A DNA stretch of 64,000 bases from contig JAMPXK010000001.1 in the NCBI GenBank assembly GCA_023701245.1, positions 64,023 through 128,022 of the forward strand, given 5' to 3'. The notes beneath the pieces were generated by a model. That model was not told where the DNA came from and made no database searches. It saw only the letters and a program-made list of their open reading frames with translations. This document shows positions 25,805 to 48,592 of the stretch, one piece after another (the stretch's first letter is position 1; each line of letters starts with the position of its first letter). The translations under genes were made by a program, and so were the position numbers. This DNA comes from Elusimicrobiales bacterium. Its GTDB lineage: Bacteria > Elusimicrobiota > Elusimicrobia > Elusimicrobiales > UBA9959.

Positions 25805-25973
25805 GGAAAGTTGCGATGCAACTTTCCCCGAGCATAGCTCGGGCGCCGGAGGGCGCGGCATACTCCCTCGCGGACCTGTCGCGCATAGCGCTTGGTCCGC
25901 GACCCGCGGCGCGGGGGATCCGGTAAATGCCGGATCCGGGATAAAAAAGACCTCTACCTTTAGGGTAGAGGTC
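25805..25973. repeat. Array of seven consecutive hairpins (intergenic palindrome cluster)
   Basis: GGAAAGTTGC-gat-GCAACTTTCC; CCCGAGC-ata-GCTCGGG; GCGCC/GGCGC; CGCGGACC...GGTCCGCG; CCCGC-ggc-GCGGG; GGATCCGG-taaatg-CCGGATCC; GACCTCTACC/GGTAGAGGTC. Confidence 0.75.
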
Positions 25974-26041
25974 ATTAGTCCCGGAGGACGGTTCCCCCGG
26001 AGGGCCGGGGCGGCGGACATCATCGCCTTGATCTGATTATA

Positions 26042-39284: not shown

Positions 39285-39313
39285 TTGAAAATACCGGTTC
39301 TGTCTGCTACACT
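39285..39313 (+). promoter_or_regulatory. Promoter of P1 (39402)
   Basis: CCCC-TTGAAA (39285-39290), 17-bp spacer, TACACT (39308-39313). Confidence 0.55.
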
Positions 39314-39327
39314 CTATTAACGGAAGG

Positions 39328-39370
39328 CCTGTTTTTTCAGTTTCCCCGCTGGGGAAAGGTGGAAAACAGG
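39328..39370 (+). promoter_or_regulatory. Structured 5' leader of P1
   Basis: CCTGTTTT (39328-39335)/AAAACAGG (39363-39370) enclosing TTTCCCC-gct-GGGGAAA (39341-39357). Confidence 0.55.
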
Positions 39371-39401
39371 ATTGATTTTTTGCGGGTGACAGGGGGCTGC
39401 T

Positions 39402-40646
39402 ATGGCCGACAATGCTAACAACAGGAAAAAAACGCTTATCATCGGCGTCCTCGCGTTCCTATTCATCGGCGGGGGCATTTTCCTGTTCTTCGTCATACAG
39501 GGCTCCAACGACCTGACGGGGGCCGGCAAGAAAAACGCTTTCACCTACGGCAACGTGGCGCGCGAAGCGGCCACCTCTTTCTTCAAATTCGTCGGGTTCG
39601 ACGACGTGGAATCGATAGCCAAGGAAGGGGACAAGGACAGGCTGCGTTTGAAAGAATACGCCGCGGCCGGCCTATTGGATTCCGCTGACGCGCCGCAGGC
39701 TCCGCAGGAAGATGTGCCGTGGGCGCCCCCGGCGGCTTCGGGCAAACCTTCCGCTCCGGCTAATATCCCCAAAATGAGCGGGGGCGGCACTTCGGGTGTG
39801 GGCGGCATGGGCGGGGGCGGCACCAGGTCTTCCGGCGGCGCTTCGCGTTTCGCTGACGGTTCGGGGGCGGGCAACACCAAGATCTCCGCCAAAGTCCAGG
39901 AGGGGGCGGACGGCGTCAAGGGGACGGGCTCGCTGGCTTCCCTGGCTAAAACTCGGGTAATGCTGGGTGACGGTCTGCGCAGCGGTTCCGCGGCCACGGC
40001 CAAGGGCAAGTGGGATTCCAGTTTCGGTGTGGGGCGCTCCGGCGGCGGCGCCGGCAGCGACCTGGCCTACGCCAAGAGCGGTCTTGTGAACCTGGACAAG
40101 ATCAAGAAAGGCGAGGTGGACAACCTTAAGACCACCGACCCCAAATCCCTTAAGACTCCCGAGGTCGGCGCTCCCAAAAAAGACGAAAAGGCCGATGAGG
40201 CCGACCCTGTGCTGAAAAAGGCCAAGGAAGCCGCCGAGGACGCTATTACCAAGAGCATGGCTTCGTCTATGGCTGGCGCCCTGGGGCAGGGGCTGACCAA
40301 TTCCACCAGCCGCGGCGGGTCCGGGGATAATCCGTCCGCTGGGGGGGTAACCGCGCCCGAGACCGGTTCCTGCCCTGTCGGCGGCGGCGGGGGCGGCGGG
40401 GTGTGCTCTGTTACCTCCGGGCACCAGATCCCTTCTGATTCCAAGGTCAATTACACTCAGGTGGGTAGCACGGCCGAGGGGAAGATTTTCGAGGTTTCTT
40501 ATGCTGGGTCCGGGCCGGGGGTTACCCCCGGTATGAAAGGCACTTCTGTCAACTACACGGACACCTGCATAGTATTGGTGAAGCCGGACGGGACCAGTAA
40601 GATAACAGGCTGGGGCGTTATCAATGAGAGCCCAGTTACCCCATAG
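39402..40646 (+). CDS. P1: Gly-rich single-TM protein of unknown function
   Basis: TM KTLIIGVLAFLFIGGGIFLFFVIQG then long low-complexity region. Confidence 0.75.
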   Translation: MADNANNRKKTLIIGVLAFLFIGGGIFLFFVIQGSNDLTGAGKKNAFTYGNVAREAATSFFKFVGFDDVESIAKEGDKDRLRLKEYAAAGLLDSADAPQAPQEDVPWAPPAASGKPSAPANIPKMSGGGTSGVGGMGGGGTRSSGGASRFADGSGAGNTKISAKVQEGADGVKGTGSLASLAKTRVMLGDGLRSGSAATAKGKWDSSFGVGRSGGGAGSDLAYAKSGLVNLDKIKKGEVDNLKTTDPKSLKTPEVGAPKKDEKADEADPVLKKAKEAAEDAITKSMASSMAGALGQGLTNSTSRGGSGDNPSAGGVTAPETGSCPVGGGGGGGVCSVTSGHQIPSDSKVNYTQVGSTAEGKIFEVSYAGSGPGVTPGMKGTSVNYTDTCIVLVKPDGTSKITGWGVINESPVTP

Positions 40647-40654
40647 CAAGGCCC

Positions 40655-40683
40655 TTGACAAGTCAAGGTTCGTCTGCTATAAC
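40655..40683 (+). promoter_or_regulatory. Promoter of P2 (40784)
   Basis: TTGACA (40655-40660), 17-bp spacer, TATAAC (40678-40683); palindrome CCTTGACaaGTCAAGG over the -35. Confidence 0.65.
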
Positions 40684-40704
40684 ATTGTTGTAAAAATAAC
40701 TTTG

Positions 40705-40740
40705 CCTTGAACGCCCCGGGTGGCTGTGTCAAGGAAAGTT
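40705..40740 (+). promoter_or_regulatory. Structured 5' leader of P2
   Basis: CCTTGA (40705-40710)/TCAAGG (40729-40734), followed by AAAGTT shared with the P5 leader. Confidence 0.55.
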
Positions 40741-40783
40741 CAGGTTCTATTTTGCGGCGTAACCAGGGAAAACAGGCGGGCAT

Positions 40784-41728
40784 ATGATAAAATTCCAGAC
40801 CAAAAAGAGCAAGACCACCCAGTACGTCATAGGCGCTGTGGTGGCCATCATCATACTCGGCCTGTGGGTTTCCCTGCCCCTGATGAACGGTTCTTCCCTG
40901 GACTCTTCCGTTTCGGCCGGTAATCCCTTCCGCTCCAAAGTCGCGGACATTTCTTCGCTCGGCAGCGATATCCCCTCCGAGGGCGGCGCCCCCGGTTCTC
41001 CCCTTAGCGGCGAAATGATAAACAATCCCGCCACCTCCGGCGAGGACATTGCCTCTTCGCTTTTCCAGTCCGGTTTGGTGGGAGAGGAACCCCTGACGGA
41101 GACCGCGGCTGCGGACTCCGCTATCGCCCCGGCCCCGCCGCCCCCGTCCTCTTCGGCCGGCGCCCCCATGCCCGCCGCCCCCGGCGGCAAACTGAGCGCG
41201 GTGGCCTCTATTACCGCAGGCAACTCCAATTCCATGACGGCTGGCGGCATACATAATAAATTCTTTGGCGCCGGCGGCCAGAAAGCCGAATTCGCGCCGT
41301 CCACCGGTCCCGATCTCAAGAAGCTCGCGGCCGCGGATACCAAGAAAACCGCCCTGATGGCCATGCTCAACAGCACCGCAGAAAAAAGCCAGCTGGCGGC
41401 CAAGACCGGCAGCATGGACGCGGCCAAGGGCGGGGCTTCGGCCGCTTTCACCAATTCCGCCAAGGCGGGGGCCTCGGACCTTAATGATAGGCTGGAGAGC
41501 CAGGCTTCTTCCTCCGGGTTGCAGCTCGGGCAGACCGCGCAGGACCTGAAGAAGAGCGATCCCAATATCAACAAGCATAAAGTTAATATTCCGGAACCCA
41601 AGCCCGTAAAGGACGATAAGAGCGATGAGGAATTCAAGAAGATGCTTGTACAGATGATATTCCAGAGCGTCATAGGCCCTATGTTCGGCGCTATGGCCAA
41701 CAGCATGTTCACTACCCCCGGCAAATAA
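40784..41728 (+). CDS. P2: low-complexity single-TM protein of unknown function
   Basis: TM TTQYVIGAVVAIIILGLWVSLPLM; C-terminal amphipathic block SDEEFKKMLVQMIFQSVIGPMFGAMANSMF. Confidence 0.75.
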   Translation: MIKFQTKKSKTTQYVIGAVVAIIILGLWVSLPLMNGSSLDSSVSAGNPFRSKVADISSLGSDIPSEGGAPGSPLSGEMINNPATSGEDIASSLFQSGLVGEEPLTETAAADSAIAPAPPPPSSSAGAPMPAAPGGKLSAVASITAGNSNSMTAGGIHNKFFGAGGQKAEFAPSTGPDLKKLAAADTKKTALMAMLNSTAEKSQLAAKTGSMDAAKGGASAAFTNSAKAGASDLNDRLESQASSSGLQLGQTAQDLKKSDPNINKHKVNIPEPKPVKDDKSDEEFKKMLVQMIFQSVIGPMFGAMANSMFTTPGK

Positions 41729-41748
41729 GGATAATTTCGGAGGATTTT

Positions 41749-43428
41749 ATGAACGACTATAACGAGAAGAAAGAGAAAAAAGGCGGTTTCTGGTCGGCCT
41801 TGTCCGGCCTGTTCCGTGGCGGTTCCGGGGCGGGCGGCGCGTCCGGTTTCGGCGGAGCTGGCGCCGGGGCGGGCGGCATAGGCGGCGCGGCGCGGGGCCT
41901 TAGCGGCCTTGCCGGGCTTTTCTCCACCAAGGCCGGTATGGTGGGCATGGTGCTGGGCGGCGCTACCATAGCGGCAGGGGTCGGCGTCATCTATAACTTC
42001 ATAGGCCCCTCCTCCAATTCGGCTTATTCTCCGGATCTTTTTCAGAATAGTTACTACGAGGAAGAGGCCTCCAAGGCCGGCAGGGAGCGCGCCATGGCCC
42101 GCGAAGGCGCTTCCGCTTCCACCCTGGACATGTTCCGCGAGCAGGCGAAAAAGGACGGCATAGGGCTTGAGGGCGATGCCTCCACTGGCCAGGCCCCTGA
42201 TCCTAACGCCGAAGTTCCCGGCGCCTCCGCCGACGCGGCCGCCCCAGAAGCTCCCGCCGGCGTTCCAGGGGATAACATGCCCAGGCTGCAGTCCGCGGCC
42301 GGGTTCGGCTCCAAAGGCGGCGGTGGCGGCGGCAACAGCTTTATCCCGCGCATGCAGGGCGGCGGCGGCATGTCCGGAGGCATAGGCAGCCAGTTCTCTT
42401 CGGTTTACCGCCCGCCGGCCAAAGCGCTGGGCAAGACTTCCGGTATGTCCGCGGCGGCGGCCCGTGTAAAGGGCTCTCCGAAGTATGCGGTGCCTAATTT
42501 CAACAAGAAGGGCGCTTTCGGTCAGGCTAAATTCGCCAAGAACATGGGCAACCAGGCCAGGTACGGCAGCGACGTCGGCGCTAAAGGCCAGGCCGGGGTT
42601 CCTTTTGATACCGCCCAGCAGGCGGGCACCGGCGATGTGGGCACCCCCGCTACCGGTTCCGGCCTGGGCGGCGCAGGCGTTTCCAACGGCGCCAACCTGC
42701 GCGGCAACGATCCCAGCCTCAATAACAACGAAGTCACGCCTCCCAAGGTGCCGGATCCTGTGGACGTTTCTCCCTGGAAGGCCTGGACCGACAGGGCCAT
42801 GTACGCCATGCTGGCGGCAACCGTCCTGATCCTTCTGACCAAGGTGCTGGCCAACTTCGCCAAGGGCGTGCCCTGGATGTATATGGCAGCCATGGTTACC
42901 GCGTATGCCGCTATGGCCGCCGCGGCCCTGGTAATAGTGTCCGGCATGATGCTGATGAGCAAGTACGGCCAGAAATGGCAGGGCGCCATGTACCTGGTGG
43001 CTGGCGCCATGCTGATGTGGCAGGCCTATCAGGCTTTGGCCGGGGTTGGTGAGGCCGCGACAAAAGCCGGGGCTAACCTGGGTTCTATGGGCAAGGCCTG
43101 TCCCGGGTATAATGCCTCCACTGCCTTCGGCAACAGTATGTCGGCTCCTGGAGCTTCAATGGAAACCATGGGGAACAGCGGCTGGACCACCGGCAGCGGG
43201 GCCGAAGCCACGATAACCCCTCCGGAAGGGGTCAATACTATCGCGGGCAGCAACGGGGCTACCGGCTATGCCGTCCCCAATGCCACCGCCGGCGGAGGGA
43301 CTATCTATTCTGGCGGACCCGGCAGCACGGCTACTACCGTGACTCCACAGGGCAATGTGCTGGCGCCTGGTGGGCAGCCTAGCGGTTTGAATTATAATTT
43401 CGGCAACAACACAATGACCAATCCGTAG
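41749..43428 (+). CDS. P3: Gly-rich protein with N-terminal TM and C-terminal multi-TM block
   Basis: SSNSAYS...TLDMFREQ; KKGAFGQAKFAK; DVSPWKAWTDRAMYAMLAATVLILL; paralogous to P4. Confidence 0.75.
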   Translation: MNDYNEKKEKKGGFWSALSGLFRGGSGAGGASGFGGAGAGAGGIGGAARGLSGLAGLFSTKAGMVGMVLGGATIAAGVGVIYNFIGPSSNSAYSPDLFQNSYYEEEASKAGRERAMAREGASASTLDMFREQAKKDGIGLEGDASTGQAPDPNAEVPGASADAAAPEAPAGVPGDNMPRLQSAAGFGSKGGGGGGNSFIPRMQGGGGMSGGIGSQFSSVYRPPAKALGKTSGMSAAAARVKGSPKYAVPNFNKKGAFGQAKFAKNMGNQARYGSDVGAKGQAGVPFDTAQQAGTGDVGTPATGSGLGGAGVSNGANLRGNDPSLNNNEVTPPKVPDPVDVSPWKAWTDRAMYAMLAATVLILLTKVLANFAKGVPWMYMAAMVTAYAAMAAAALVIVSGMMLMSKYGQKWQGAMYLVAGAMLMWQAYQALAGVGEAATKAGANLGSMGKACPGYNASTAFGNSMSAPGASMETMGNSGWTTGSGAEATITPPEGVNTIAGSNGATGYAVPNATAGGGTIYSGGPGSTATTVTPQGNVLAPGGQPSGLNYNFGNNTMTNP

Positions 43429-43544
43429 GGGACTGTCTACAATGCTTCCACGGGTTCGGTTGTGCGTACTGCGGGTGCCGGGTCGATATGATCCTGTGCG
43501 TGTGTTGTGAGTAATGTTTTAGCGAGGGTTTTGCTGGAGGCGTT

Positions 43545-45023
43545 ATGAACGACAATCTGCCTGATATAAACTTTAAGGAAAAGAAAGAGAAGAAGAAGGG
43601 CATAATAGGCTGGCTGCGCGGCAAGTTCGGCGCGGGCTCGCGCGGCGGCGCCATGGGCGAAGCCGGGCTTATGAACCCTTCCGCCATGAACGTGGGCCGG
43701 GCCATCGGGGCGGGCAAGTTCGGCGCCTCCGGCGGACTGGCCGGCCTGCTGGCCGGTAAGGCCGGGATACTGGCCACCATAGCCGCGGTGGCGGTGGCCA
43801 GCGGCGTTTACCTGGCCAACCAGGCGCCTGCGCCCTCCGGCAGCAACAGCGCTTTCAGCGGCGGCAAGGTGCAGGACAATTATGTGCCTGCCATCCTGCG
43901 CAGCCAGGCCGCCAACCAGGGGTCCTCGCTGGACATGTTCAAAGATACCAACAAGAACGCCGGCCTGGCCATGGAAGAGGACCCTTCCAAGAAGAACCAG
44001 GGCAAGCCCGGGGAAGGGGATCCCGCGGCGGCCGGTGAGGGGGAGGCGCAGCCGGAGCAGCCCGCGGCGCCCGACCAGAACAACATGGCCCAGGACATGA
44101 TGGGTAAGCTGCAGGGCGGCGATATAGGGTCCCTCTCCAGTTCCCTTGGCGGCGGTTCCAATAAGTTCTCCGCCATGGGCGGCTTCGGCAACAAGTTCAA
44201 CCAGGGCCAGGTGGGCGCCAAGACCGGCCTCAGTTCCAATATAGGCTCCGGTTTCCAGGGCCTGCCCAAGTTCGACGCCCGCAAGGGTAAGATGACGGCG
44301 ATGAAGGCCTCCTCCAAGCCCATCTTCTCCAAGAGCGGCGCCGGCAAGAAGGGGAAATTCGGCACCGGGGCTTTCGGCCAGGCCAAAGGCCTGCGCAGCA
44401 CGCAGAAATCTTATACCGGCAACCAGATAGACCCTATGGCCGGCACGCAGAACGCTGCCTGGACCGGCAGTACGCCCGAAGGCAGCACCAGCGGCGGCAC
44501 CGGTCTTAACGACGGCGGCGCCGGCATCATGTCTTCGCCTTCGCTCGACAACTCCGGCAGCGGCGGAGGCGGCGGCGGCGCAGGCGTCCCGGAAGAGCCC
44601 GCGGTGCCTGAGGCTCCGGCTCCCACCGACGTGAGCCCCTGGGCCAGCGCGGTGTCGATGGCGATGATGATGATAATGATCTCCTGCGTGCTGTCCGCCA
44701 TCGGTTCCTACCTCATATCCATAGGTTCCAAGACCGCAGCGGCCGTCTCGTTGGGTCTGTTCCTCTACTGGGCGGGCATGGCGTTGTGTATTGTCGCCGC
44801 CATGCTGGCCGCTTTCGCCATCTATCAGGCCATCACGATCATGACACAGCATGGGCAGGCCATGCTGGGTACCGTTTATCTGTTGGGCGGCGCCGCAGCC
44901 ATGGCGGCGGCCTATTTCGCCATGACAGGTACCACGCCTGGCAATCCCAGCGGTACCGCGATGGTCCTTGCCGCTGCCGGCGGCGTGCTCTCCATGATAG
45001 GGAGCATGCTTGGCGGCAAGTAG
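43545..45023 (+). CDS. P4: Gly-rich protein with N-terminal TM and C-terminal multi-TM block
   Basis: GSNSAFS...SSLDMFKDT; GTGAFGQAKGL; DVSPWASAVSMAMMMIMISCVL. Confidence 0.75.
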   Translation: MNDNLPDINFKEKKEKKKGIIGWLRGKFGAGSRGGAMGEAGLMNPSAMNVGRAIGAGKFGASGGLAGLLAGKAGILATIAAVAVASGVYLANQAPAPSGSNSAFSGGKVQDNYVPAILRSQAANQGSSLDMFKDTNKNAGLAMEEDPSKKNQGKPGEGDPAAAGEGEAQPEQPAAPDQNNMAQDMMGKLQGGDIGSLSSSLGGGSNKFSAMGGFGNKFNQGQVGAKTGLSSNIGSGFQGLPKFDARKGKMTAMKASSKPIFSKSGAGKKGKFGTGAFGQAKGLRSTQKSYTGNQIDPMAGTQNAAWTGSTPEGSTSGGTGLNDGGAGIMSSPSLDNSGSGGGGGGAGVPEEPAVPEAPAPTDVSPWASAVSMAMMMIMISCVLSAIGSYLISIGSKTAAAVSLGLFLYWAGMALCIVAAMLAAFAIYQAITIMTQHGQAMLGTVYLLGGAAAMAAAYFAMTGTTPGNPSGTAMVLAAAGGVLSMIGSMLGGK

Positions 45024-45040
45024 GCGTTTTTCCGCCTGTG

Positions 45041-45083
45041 CCCTGCCTCCCCGCGGTGTGTCTGCGGGGGGGCAGGGTTTTCT
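45041..45083 (+). terminator. Rho-independent terminator after P4
   Basis: CCCTGCCTCCCCGCGG-tgtgt-CTGCGGGGGGGCAGGG then TTTTCTTTT. Confidence 0.8.
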
Positions 45084-45110
45084 TTTGATGCTTTTTGTCC
45101 GCCACGCGAT

Positions 45111-46487
45111 ATGAAAGTAGCTTTCATACGGCCGCCTTTCCCTCCGCCGCACTGGCTTATAGGGCTGATCCGGGACCACGATTTCCCTCTCGGGATAGGG
45201 TACCTGGCTGCCGTGCTGTCGCGCGCGGGCAACGAGGTCAGGGTCTTCGACCCGGAGGCCGTCTCCCAGCCGTTGGAAAAAATGTGGGCCGAGCTCGAGA
45301 AGTTCAAACCGGACCTCGTCGGGATAACTACCGTTACGCCCAGGTTCGAGGTGGCGGTCAAGCTGGCCAGGGAAGCCAAAAGACGTCTTAAATGTCTCGT
45401 GATAATGGGGGGGCCTCATGCCACCGCCCTGCCCCGCTCCACCCTGTTGGCCGCGAGATGTCTCGACGCGGTGATCATGGGAGAGGCCGAGTCTTCGATG
45501 CTGGCCGTCGCCGCGGGATTCAACGCCGGGGGCAAGGTGGATTTTAACCGGATACCGGGTGCGGCGTTCTTCGAGAACTGGAATTACAGGGAGATCCCCC
45601 GGCCCGAGTTCATACAGGACCTGGATGCCATCCCCTATCCGCAGCGCGACTTCGTTCACCTCAGGGCCTACAACAGGAACCGCGTCATGTTCGGGGGGGT
45701 AAGGTGCGCCACTGTAATGTCCAGCCGGGGTTGCCCTGGGCGCTGCACCTTCTGCGCCAACATCTGCACCGGCAGGAAGCTGCGCCTGCGCGGGCCCGAG
45801 AATTTCGTCGGGGAGATGGAATTCCTCTCGAAGGACCACGGGGTAAAATATTTCCAGATCTACGACGACTGCTTTACCGCGGACCCGAAGCACGTGGAGG
45901 CCGTCTGCGACCTGATACTTTCCAGGGGCCTCAGGATCCGGTGGGGGGCCTTCGGCCGCGTTAACACGGTGCAGGACGAGCGGCTGCTGCGCAAGATGAA
46001 ACGTGCCGGCTGCATGCATATGCTCCTGGGGATAGAATCGGGCAACCAGCGTATCTTGAATCTGATGCGCAAGGGAACGACCCTGGAGGCGGCCGAGAAG
46101 AGCTGCACCCTGCTTCGCAAATGCGGGATATCCTATTCCAACTCCTTCATGCTTGGATGCGAAGGGGAAACGCTGGAAACGGCCAGGGACACGATAGTTT
46201 TCGCGGAAAAATTAGGCTCCGAAATGTTCAATTTCGTCATACTTATCCCGTTTCCCGGCACCGAGCTGTTCGAGAAGTACTACAAGGATTTTGACAGCCC
46301 TGACACGGACTGGGAGAATTGGTGCTCCCAGGAGGACAATAGGCCGTATCCCATGCGTCATACCTCACTGACGATGGAGCAGCTGATCTCCCTTCAGATG
46401 GAGGCGGGGCTTAGGTATACGCGCAGCCCGGTAAGGTTCATGCGGGCCATGCGTTTCGGGCTGCGGGAACTGGGACTGGCACTATGA
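45111..46487 (+). CDS. B12-binding-domain radical SAM protein
   Basis: N-terminal B12-binding-like domain; CPGRCTFC (CxxxCxxC); MHMLLGIESGNQRILNLMRKGTT. Confidence 0.9.
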   Translation: MKVAFIRPPFPPPHWLIGLIRDHDFPLGIGYLAAVLSRAGNEVRVFDPEAVSQPLEKMWAELEKFKPDLVGITTVTPRFEVAVKLAREAKRRLKCLVIMGGPHATALPRSTLLAARCLDAVIMGEAESSMLAVAAGFNAGGKVDFNRIPGAAFFENWNYREIPRPEFIQDLDAIPYPQRDFVHLRAYNRNRVMFGGVRCATVMSSRGCPGRCTFCANICTGRKLRLRGPENFVGEMEFLSKDHGVKYFQIYDDCFTADPKHVEAVCDLILSRGLRIRWGAFGRVNTVQDERLLRKMKRAGCMHMLLGIESGNQRILNLMRKGTTLEAAEKSCTLLRKCGISYSNSFMLGCEGETLETARDTIVFAEKLGSEMFNFVILIPFPGTELFEKYYKDFDSPDTDWENWCSQEDNRPYPMRHTSLTMEQLISLQMEAGLRYTRSPVRFMRAMRFGLRELGLAL

Positions 46488-46499
46488 CGCGTGTGCCCC

Positions 46500-46528
46500 T
46501 TGACATGTCAATGTTCTTATGATATAAT
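46500..46528 (+). promoter_or_regulatory. Promoter of P5 (46659)
   Basis: TTGACA (46500-46505), 17-bp spacer, TATAAT (46523-46528); palindrome TTGACATGTCAA over the -35. Confidence 0.7.
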
Positions 46529-46548
46529 ATAGATAATAATAGGCTTCG

Positions 46549-46583
46549 CCCTGAACCTTTTAAAAATCGTGTCAGGGAAAGTT
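46549..46583 (+). promoter_or_regulatory. Structured 5' leader of P5
   Basis: CCCTGA (46549-46554)/TCAGGG (46572-46577) followed by AAAGTT. Confidence 0.55.
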
Positions 46584-46658
46584 GTAGTTTTGTCTTTATA
46601 ATTTTTGGCGAAACTCGCGGTGTAGCGGTTCCTCGGCCCCGGCGGACGGGAGGAGAAT

Positions 46659-48278
46659 ATGGGCAACAAATTCATAGAGAAGCACAGGCGGAAGTCCCTG
46701 CTCGCCTCGCTATTGTTCATTTTCCGGGGCCGCGGGAAGTTCGTAGCCATCCTGCTGATGGTCACCATACTTTCCGTTCCTTTCGTGATTTCCGGGGAGA
46801 CGCTCGGCCGTATCATAGAGCTGCGCCCCGTGGCCGCGTTCCTGCGCTCCATAGGCATGAGCAGCGTGGTCTCCTCGCTCAATCCCAAGTACTCCAACGA
46901 CCTGCTCAAGGCGGCGCTGGACAAGGCGGCGGAAGACAGCGCCAATAACTCCTTCTGGAACAAGTTCCTAAAGAGCATCAACGCCACGCTGCCCCCGGCG
47001 GGCAGCGGTTCCTCCATGGCCATGATCCGCGGCGGCGGGGATATTTTCGGCCTGCCGGAGATCAAGGACCCCAAGGGCGCCAAGGCCGGTCCCGGCCAGG
47101 TTAAGGGCGTGGTCAACGAGGAGGAGCGGGCGCGCGGCGAGACGGGCGACGAGGTCAACCTGGAGTCGCTCCTGGCCGGCGGGCCCGGCGGCGCGGGCGC
47201 TGACGGCGGGCTTTACGGAGATTTGATGGGGGAGAACCTGGCCGGCCGGTTCGGCGGTTCCAGCAATTCCCCTTACATGGGCAGCAGCATGATGGGCGGC
47301 GGGCCCTCCGTGGGCGGGCGCACGTCCGGCATGTACAACAAGGTTTACAGCCAGGCAGGCAGCAAGGTGCCGCTGCCCGGCAAGCCGGCCAAGGTCAATA
47401 CCAAGACCATGGGCCGCGTGTCGGGGTTCACCTGGAAGAACGTGGGCTACAAGAACAAGAACGCCAAGATGGACGTGAAGATAGGCAACCAGCGGCCTAT
47501 GTTCCAGCTGGCGCAGACCTTCGCCATGACGGCCACGGCCTTCAAGTCCAAGAGTTCCGCCACCGAGTACCAGGCCGCCTATACCGGCGCCACTTACGAC
47601 GGCAACGACGTGAACCTGGACGTGATGGAGACCGACGCTGCTGGCACGGTGGTGCCCGACACCGCCATGACCGGGGACCTTATAGACGGGGCCGTGGGCA
47701 TGCAGGACGCCGCCAAGCTGTGTTCCGACGCGCAGGGCACCAACGGCGCCAAAATGTCGGAAGACGGCAAGATGATAGACGATATTTCCAAGACGCTGGG
47801 CAAGCCGCCCAAGTGCTGCGGCAACGTGGATTCCTGGAACGGCAAGATAGACAGGATCATTTCGTACTGTCACGACTTCAACATCAACGAGGCCCAGTTG
47901 GCGGCCGCCTGCCAGAACAAGAGCAATCCCATGGACTGCGGCGGCTACAACAGCATGAAGATCAAGAAATGCTCGAAGCTCAAATGCTTCCTGAGCATCA
48001 TCATCGCCATCCTGATGATCATGATAGGCGGCTTCTTCGCCATGCCTTTCCTGGTCGCGGCCGGCGTGGGCATGCTGGTGTCTCAGCTGGTGCCCGGTAT
48101 CTTCGGCCAGATCCTGGGCGCTCTTATAACGCTGGGAGCCGGCCTCTTCATGGCGGGAGGGTTGGCCAACTTCATTACGGCCTCCCTGAAAGTGTCCATG
48201 GAAAATGTCCTGACCACCATAATGACCATCTCCGGCAAGATAGCCGGGACGGACGGCGGCGGGGACGAGGAATCTTAA
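46659..48278 (+). CDS. P5: membrane protein with Cys-rich segment and C-terminal TM block
   Basis: N-terminal TM VAILLMVTILSVPFVIS; about 8 Cys before the C-terminal TMs. Confidence 0.75.
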   Translation: MGNKFIEKHRRKSLLASLLFIFRGRGKFVAILLMVTILSVPFVISGETLGRIIELRPVAAFLRSIGMSSVVSSLNPKYSNDLLKAALDKAAEDSANNSFWNKFLKSINATLPPAGSGSSMAMIRGGGDIFGLPEIKDPKGAKAGPGQVKGVVNEEERARGETGDEVNLESLLAGGPGGAGADGGLYGDLMGENLAGRFGGSSNSPYMGSSMMGGGPSVGGRTSGMYNKVYSQAGSKVPLPGKPAKVNTKTMGRVSGFTWKNVGYKNKNAKMDVKIGNQRPMFQLAQTFAMTATAFKSKSSATEYQAAYTGATYDGNDVNLDVMETDAAGTVVPDTAMTGDLIDGAVGMQDAAKLCSDAQGTNGAKMSEDGKMIDDISKTLGKPPKCCGNVDSWNGKIDRIISYCHDFNINEAQLAAACQNKSNPMDCGGYNSMKIKKCSKLKCFLSIIIAILMIMIGGFFAMPFLVAAGVGMLVSQLVPGIFGQILGALITLGAGLFMAGGLANFITASLKVSMENVLTTIMTISGKIAGTDGGGDEES

Positions 48279-48592
48279 GCCCGTGGTAAAGCCGTACAGG
48301 AGGAAGCAGGTGCCGGACAACATCAGTGAGGCGGCGGAGTGAAGGTTTTCAGACCTGCGGAGTTTTCCTCCGGGAGCGCCCGGTAGGCGTTCCGGCTTTG
48401 CCGGCGGGCTTTTCTATGGTCTTTTTACGTCGTGTGGCGCCGTGGGCCTAAGGGCCCAGAAGGACAAGGGTCCAATGACACTTGGCTGCGGCGCGGATAT
48501 TAGGTACATTATAATCGGAAAGGTGTAATGCCGCTTTTCAGGCTTGGTATATTAATAGGAACGTCAGTTAAATCGCGGACCCGGAGGCAGTT

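Follow-up and report, generated by a model that had tools for sequence, protein, structure and literature searches.

A structured 5′ leader is a known kind of element, and several described systems come close to the one reported here. The ompA, papA and aprE messages start, at their very 5′ end, with a stabilising stem-loop, after which comes a single-stranded stretch with the RBS, and the position at the 5′ end is conserved. 5′ structures stabilise mRNA by blocking the access of RppH and RNase E (PMC3997798). The put RNA of HK022 (putL) is a structured RNA with conserved bulges that is made right after the promoter. In addition, the LoaP-dependent dfn and mln leaders have a small hairpin within the long 5′ leader of an operon. 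Furthermore, autoregulatory protein-binding leaders of the ribosomal protein type place a locus-restricted hairpin with a conserved bulge before their own operon.

The leaders described in this study, from Elusimicrobiota, differ from each of these systems. Compared with ompA, papA and aprE, they have a sequence-conserved bulged core over many genera, two types of hairpin on adjacent transcripts and a promoter that contains a dyad, and their stabilising role is putative. Compared with put, which consists of two hairpins and serves phage early genes, there is one shorter hairpin before cellular genes without an assigned function; contact with the polymerase is a feature of put, and none is known for the Elusimicrobiota hairpins. 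Unlike the dfn and mln leaders, they come without a UNCG tetraloop hairpin, a leader terminator or a second NusG-family protein. Finally, in contrast to the leaders of the ribosomal protein type, the products of the operon look exported or membrane-bound and have no known RNA-binding domain.

The two hairpin families, called type A and type B here, are new. Neither is in Rfam 15, and our literature search found no paper on RNA motifs of Elusimicrobiota or on the P1–P6 gene cluster. The comparison with Rfam gave no match to any leader at the gathering threshold, and permissive thresholds gave only snoRNA noise outside the leaders. The sole match in the window was a fluoride riboswitch (RF01734, 39.3 bits, positions 25959-26036, minus strand).

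Methods

The window is the whole stretch of DNA that was analysed (64,000 nucleotides), and it comes from an Elusimicrobiota genome obtained from environmental DNA. The relatives are Elusimicrobia MAGs, several of them from groundwater. Their P1–P6 region was gathered first from 19 genomes of the genus and then from the whole family. Two covariance models were used for searching, R1 for the P2 and P5 leaders and R2 for the P1 leaders. Pair changes were compared with shuffled alignments and with slid structures. Because shuffles ignore relatedness, a tree-based test was added, in which parsimony served to reconstruct the changes on a tree of the P2 protein from 44 genomes and the null was formed by 5000 random pairings of the same columns.

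Results

Genes and features of the locus

The features of the locus are listed in Table 1. The leaders of P1, P2 and P5 each lie behind a sigma-70-like promoter. No protein of the P1–P6 set matched a Pfam or NCBIfam family, the radical SAM gene being the exception. By inspection, a membrane segment at the N-terminus of the P1–P6 proteins is followed by sequence of low complexity, and the structure model of P5 is mostly disordered (pLDDT 47). From this we infer that the products are membrane or envelope proteins. When compared with its own genome, the radical SAM protein gives 27 matches: itself and 26 weaker ones.

Table 1. Positions of the promoters, hairpins, genes and terminator of the P1–P5 locus (window numbering) and of the extra type A cassettes in one relative, G116.
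Feature	Position	Strand	Details
P1 promoter	39285..39313	+	TTGAAA-17 nt-TACACT, GTCTG before -10; promoter scan 9/12
Type B hairpin, P1 leader	39328..39370	+	CCTGTTTTTTCA-G-TTTCCCC-loop-GGGGAAA-GG-TGGAAAACAGG; folding and R2 model
P1 CDS	39402..40646	+	414 aa; N-terminal membrane segment (by inspection); no Pfam/NCBIfam match
P2 promoter	40655..40683	+	TTGACA-17 nt-TATAAC; -35 inside dyad TTGACAAGTCAA
Type A hairpin, P2 leader	40698..40740	+	R1 match 40695-40746, 67 bits
P2 CDS	40784..41728	+	314 aa; N-terminal membrane segment (by inspection); no family match
P3 CDS	41749..43428	+	downstream gene in the P2 unit
P4 CDS	43545..45023	+	P3-related
Intrinsic terminator after P4	45040..45085	+	17-bp stem and T run; ends the P2–P4 unit in the window genome
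B12-binding radical SAM gene	45111..46487	+	between P4 and P5; in 5 genus genomes
P5 promoter	46500..46528	+	TTGACA-17 nt-TATAAT; perfect 12/12; -35 inside dyad TTGACATGTCAA
Type A hairpin, P5 leader	46542..46583	+	R1 match 46539-46589, 57 bits
P5 CDS	46659..48278	+	539 aa
Extra type A cassettes, G116	L179 3306-3356 and 4650-4700; L180 7007-7057	minus

P6 has neither a type A nor a type B hairpin in its leader. Its upstream region is strongly conserved (window 48440-48530 and 17 relatives, L021-L039), with the pattern GGGCCnAAAGGCCCA...GGnCCAATGACACTTGGCC...GTAAATTATAAT. The centre of a dyad in this region lies about 43 nt ahead of the inferred start, a position that would suit an activator site.

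Two hairpin types

The initial annotation had proposed one structured leader shared by P1, P2 and P5. This was right for P2 and P5, which have type A in common, and wrong for P1, which has the distinct type B. R1 matched no P1 leader and R2 matched no P2 or P5 leader, and with no cross-matches between the two models a single motif for the three leaders was ruled out. The P1 stem with a nested TTTCCCC/GGGGAAA hairpin, which had also been noticed, is indeed present. A further alignment of the P1 and P2 leaders downstream of the stems did not hold up, as in the relatives nothing is kept beyond the U-rich stretch. In the full set of 19 genus relatives, type A stands before P2 and the P1 element before P1.

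Type A is an 18-bp bulged helix with the motif GAAC/GUGU and a bulged G, near-constant across copies. The P2 and P5 hairpin sequences were originally placed at 40704-40740 and 46548-46583, and both are exact; the extent at P2 was too short, because pairing of AACTTT with AAAGTT lengthens the helix to AACUUU-G-CCUUGAAC ... GUGUCAAGG-AAAGUU. In P2 the near-invariant letters are GAAC at 40709-40712 and GTGT at 40726-40729, and U40725 and G40728 are unpaired in the 3′ arm. The apical loops of type A are variable, and the spacing between the arms is 8-16 nt. Furthermore, G-U pairs are frequent on the transcribed strand.

Type B has the RNA consensus CCUGnUUUUUCA-G-UUUCC...GGAA-GG-UGAAAAACAGG with the core CAG/GGUG, and it is nearly constant within the genus. 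In other genera the core is kept, the outer pairs are CCUU/AAGG or CCCG/CGGG, and one inner pair is seen both as U-A and as C-G. The apical part varies from 16 to 69 nt across genera and includes a 56-nt extension forming a long helix of its own.

Covariation and conservation of type A

Folding of single sequences gave unremarkable z values for P2 (-1.5) and P5 (-0.6) and a better one for P1 (-2.4). One folded sequence proves nothing; it is the comparative evidence that does. The compensated change from CCTTGA/TCAAGG in P2 to CCCTGA/TCAGGG in P5, on which the first reading relied, is genuine in the sequence, and the evidence for the P2/P5 hairpin is now much stronger than that single covarying pair. 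In 30 distinct type A sequences, 94.4% of the cells are paired and two-sided changes occur in 9 of the 18 pairs. The cells changed on both sides number 37, against a mean of 11.6 (SD 2.8) for shuffled alignments and at most 17 for slid structures. On the P2 protein tree, 14 branches carry a double change that keeps the pair; the 5000 random pairings gave 1.2 on average and never more than 11. Pair-preserving covariation thus goes beyond phylogeny, as for a conserved structured cis-acting RNA. Repeated changes were found at C12-G43, at C13-G42 and at two apical pairs.

The GAAC/GUGU core stays constant while neighbouring pairs swap. The extraction of rows for the tree-based test demanded most of the GAAC/GUGU letters, so the invariance is better judged from the R1 matches, which keep the motif except in a degenerate copy with GTGG (L109) and in one copy with GTAT (L196). 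The conserved type A structure is very probably a real and previously uncatalogued control element. The proposal that these leaders are cis-acting RNAs is strongly supported by the tree-aware covariation, the G-U pairs, the variable apical loops and the fixed distance to the promoter.

Promoters and position at the 5′ end

The P1 promoter is kept in 27 relatives (CCTTGAAA...GTCTGCTANACT). From the start of the -35 box to the type A helix there are 40-46 nt within the genus (mean 44.2, SD 1.3, n = 32) and 38-52 nt in other genera (mean 45.1, SD 2.6, n = 22). The distance from the helix to the start codon, with start codons chosen by a simple RBS rule, has a mean of 54 nt (SD 18, from 29 to 114 nt) in the genus and 65 nt (SD 38) in other genera. 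Because the distance to the promoter is fixed while that to the start codon varies, type A is anchored to the mRNA 5′ end. The conserved RNA structures move with the promoter at a fixed distance. The promoters are strong and conserved, and the helices start 5-11 nt after the TSS inferred from them; on that inferred TSS, the hairpin lies a few nucleotides from the 5′ end, as in 5′ stabilising stem-loops.

The -35 dyad TTGACAAGTCAA at P2 (40655-40666), with its counterpart TTGACATGTCAA at P5 (46500-46511), is perfect, and it is kept in 46 of the 55 type A copies with a recognisable -35 box. It is possibly a repressor or activator site, which would be a second control at the level of the DNA.

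A 22-nt core of the P2 promoter recurs 5′ of a non-coding region of about 400 nt (G000:C84:29589-29999, which is L197:1090-1500; L199-L230). This region, which starts with TGTAGTCCTGATCTTT, is conserved among relatives in the genus, and a genome often has several copies of it. Matches were found in 18 of the 31 genomes searched, some of them only to the promoter end, and the region has no Rfam, rRNA or tRNA match. A promoter shared with rRNA was ruled out, since the second copy of the P2 promoter precedes this non-coding region and not an rRNA, a tRNA or an Rfam family. The region looks like an undescribed multi-copy non-coding RNA family.

Distribution across genomes

The search of related genomes with R1 recovered type A family-wide: it is present in 45 of the 59 genomes of the family and in 8 of the 13 genera, nearly always immediately 5′ of the P2 orthologue. 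Among 199 sampled genomes of the phylum, R1 matched none that lies outside the family. Type B, searched with R2, is present in 33 of the 59 family genomes. In addition, G116 has three extra type A cassettes, two of them 5′ of tandem CHAP-domain genes and one 5′ of a gene for a calpain-like protease. Truncated extra copies of P2 (L107 4650-4701, L109 3454-3502, L192 1052-1103) keep the promoter, the hairpin and about the first 35 codons; two genomes of another genus have such copies. No P2 was found in viral contigs.

The P4–P5 split

In five genomes of the genus (the window, L024, L027, L035 and G042), the radical SAM gene splits P4 from P5, and all five have a type A promoter and leader before P5; in G042 the radical SAM gene and the P5 leader are on separate contigs. 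Where P4 and P5 are adjacent and the radical SAM gene is absent, none of 18 genomes has a promoter and hairpin before P5. This association would have a probability of about 3e-5 if the genomes were independent, which they are not. The leader is re-supplied at P5, and in the window a strong terminator closes the P2–P4 unit; the leader therefore appears to be required on every transcript of the gene set.

In genomes without the radical SAM gene (such as L023, L025 and L028), the P4–P5 intergenic region has a conserved hairpin, GCCGCCGGG-TTTTAT-CCCGGCGGC, with no T run. This hairpin is possibly a processing or stability element.

Discussion

The best explanation of these results is that type A (P2 and P5) and type B (P1) are cis-acting RNA hairpins with which the mRNAs of a jointly regulated group of proteins begin; these proteins are membrane-anchored and mostly of low complexity. 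We tentatively favour the reading that the 5′-terminal hairpin guards the message and at the same time exposes its bulged core for binding by a trans-acting factor. The hairpin would be the first structure to emerge and would shield the 5′ end from end-dependent decay. In addition, it would present its invariant motif with the bulged G, GAAC/GUGU for type A and CAG/GGUG for type B, to a putative factor acting in trans, which would set the stability or the expression of the transcript. Both the factor and the effect on the message are what we infer beyond the conserved structure itself. Two-sided compensation that exceeds the shuffled, slid and tree-based controls speaks for this reading, and so do the constant core amid swapping pairs, the steady distance to the promoter, the P5 copies in the split operons, the extra cassettes of G116, the known effect of 5′ structures on RppH and RNase E, and the lack of a terminator ahead of the start codon. 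Against end protection alone, the invariant letters of the internal loop are not needed for it, so a ligand has to be assumed. Furthermore, there are probably a few unpaired nucleotides ahead of the helix, which would weaken the protection, and the predicted equilibrium fold of full-length P2 leaders often differs from the hairpin.

Several other readings were weighed against this one. In a translational switch, the 5′ arm would have two alternative partners, either the 3′ arm, so that the RBS stays accessible, or the RBS together with the start codon, which would then be blocked; a factor or the temperature would choose. The predicted fold of many full leaders of the genus does place AUCAACUUUGNCCU, the 5′ arm, opposite AGGCGGGGUUAUGAU; the RBS is similar to the 3′ arm and in register with it; and in 10 of 20 genomes the 5′ arm of P2 prefers its own RBS over those of all other genes of the locus (mean -11.1 vs -7.9 kcal/mol). 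However, this preference does not hold for P2 of the window, where 5 of 8 other RBSs pair equally well or better, nor for P5 (0 of 4) or P1 (4 of 19). Moreover, the distance from the helix to the start codon is not conserved, and purine-rich RBSs pair with pyrimidine-rich arms anyway. We regard such a switch as unlikely. Rather less likely still is RNA-based processive antitermination or anti-pausing, in which the nascent hairpin would bind RNA polymerase, as put does, and let the long operon be read through. The place just after the promoter is like that of putL (PMC9378689), and the conserved bulges, the long operons and the leader re-supplied upon the operon split would suit it. However, there is one hairpin of about 45 nt here, and put RNAs have about 70 nt and two stem-loops (PMC9378689); in the window, P1 also seems to form a transcription unit of one gene. 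Factors of the RfaH or LoaP type would call for a second NusG paralogue, and a search found one NusG-family match in each of 31 genomes, never two, and none in the window's own assembly, which is incomplete; this speaks against such factors.

Conserved internal-loop letters within covarying helices would also be expected of a metabolite riboswitch with a small aptamer, which we consider improbable. The leaders matched none of 4227 Rfam families, even at permissive E-values, and for an aptamer one bulged hairpin would be a simple structure. A terminator scan found no intrinsic terminator between hairpin and start codon in the three window leaders. Since there is no leader terminator, no consistent sequestration of the RBS and no metabolic theme among the genes, the riboswitch is without support. 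As for the DNA level, the inverted repeats could be operators for a dimeric regulator and not RNA at all; the promoter does hold the dyad TTGACAAGTCAA, and operator arms can also covary. However, the spacing between the half-sites is not fixed in either type, the bulges are confined to one arm, and the transcribed strand has many G-U pairs. Because of the variable loop lengths and these G-U pairs, we conclude that the element acts as RNA; the DNA operator was rejected as highly improbable. Among the mechanisms in the initial annotation, a protein-binding leader fits best and the riboswitch finds no support, while translational control is suggestive for P2 in part of the genus and not for P2 of the window, P1 or P5.

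The protective, factor-binding hairpin may be taken one step further. Type A could be a portable cassette of promoter plus hairpin that is specific to one family of Elusimicrobiota, whose bulged-G hairpin would be read by a dedicated, undescribed RNA-binding or polymerase-modifying factor, so as to coordinate the separate transcripts of a surface or envelope assembly. This is a speculative extension, and we consider it somewhat doubtful.

The results add two structured-RNA families with strong comparative support to a phylum without described RNA motifs in the literature that we searched. They also mark a gene cluster that had no annotation as a set whose members are regulated together and coupled in function. 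Furthermore, the operon split with a leader re-supplied to P5 is a natural experiment that gives a direct handle on the role of the element. If the bulged G is indeed bound by a dedicated factor, the hairpins would represent a new system of post-transcriptional or early-elongation control.
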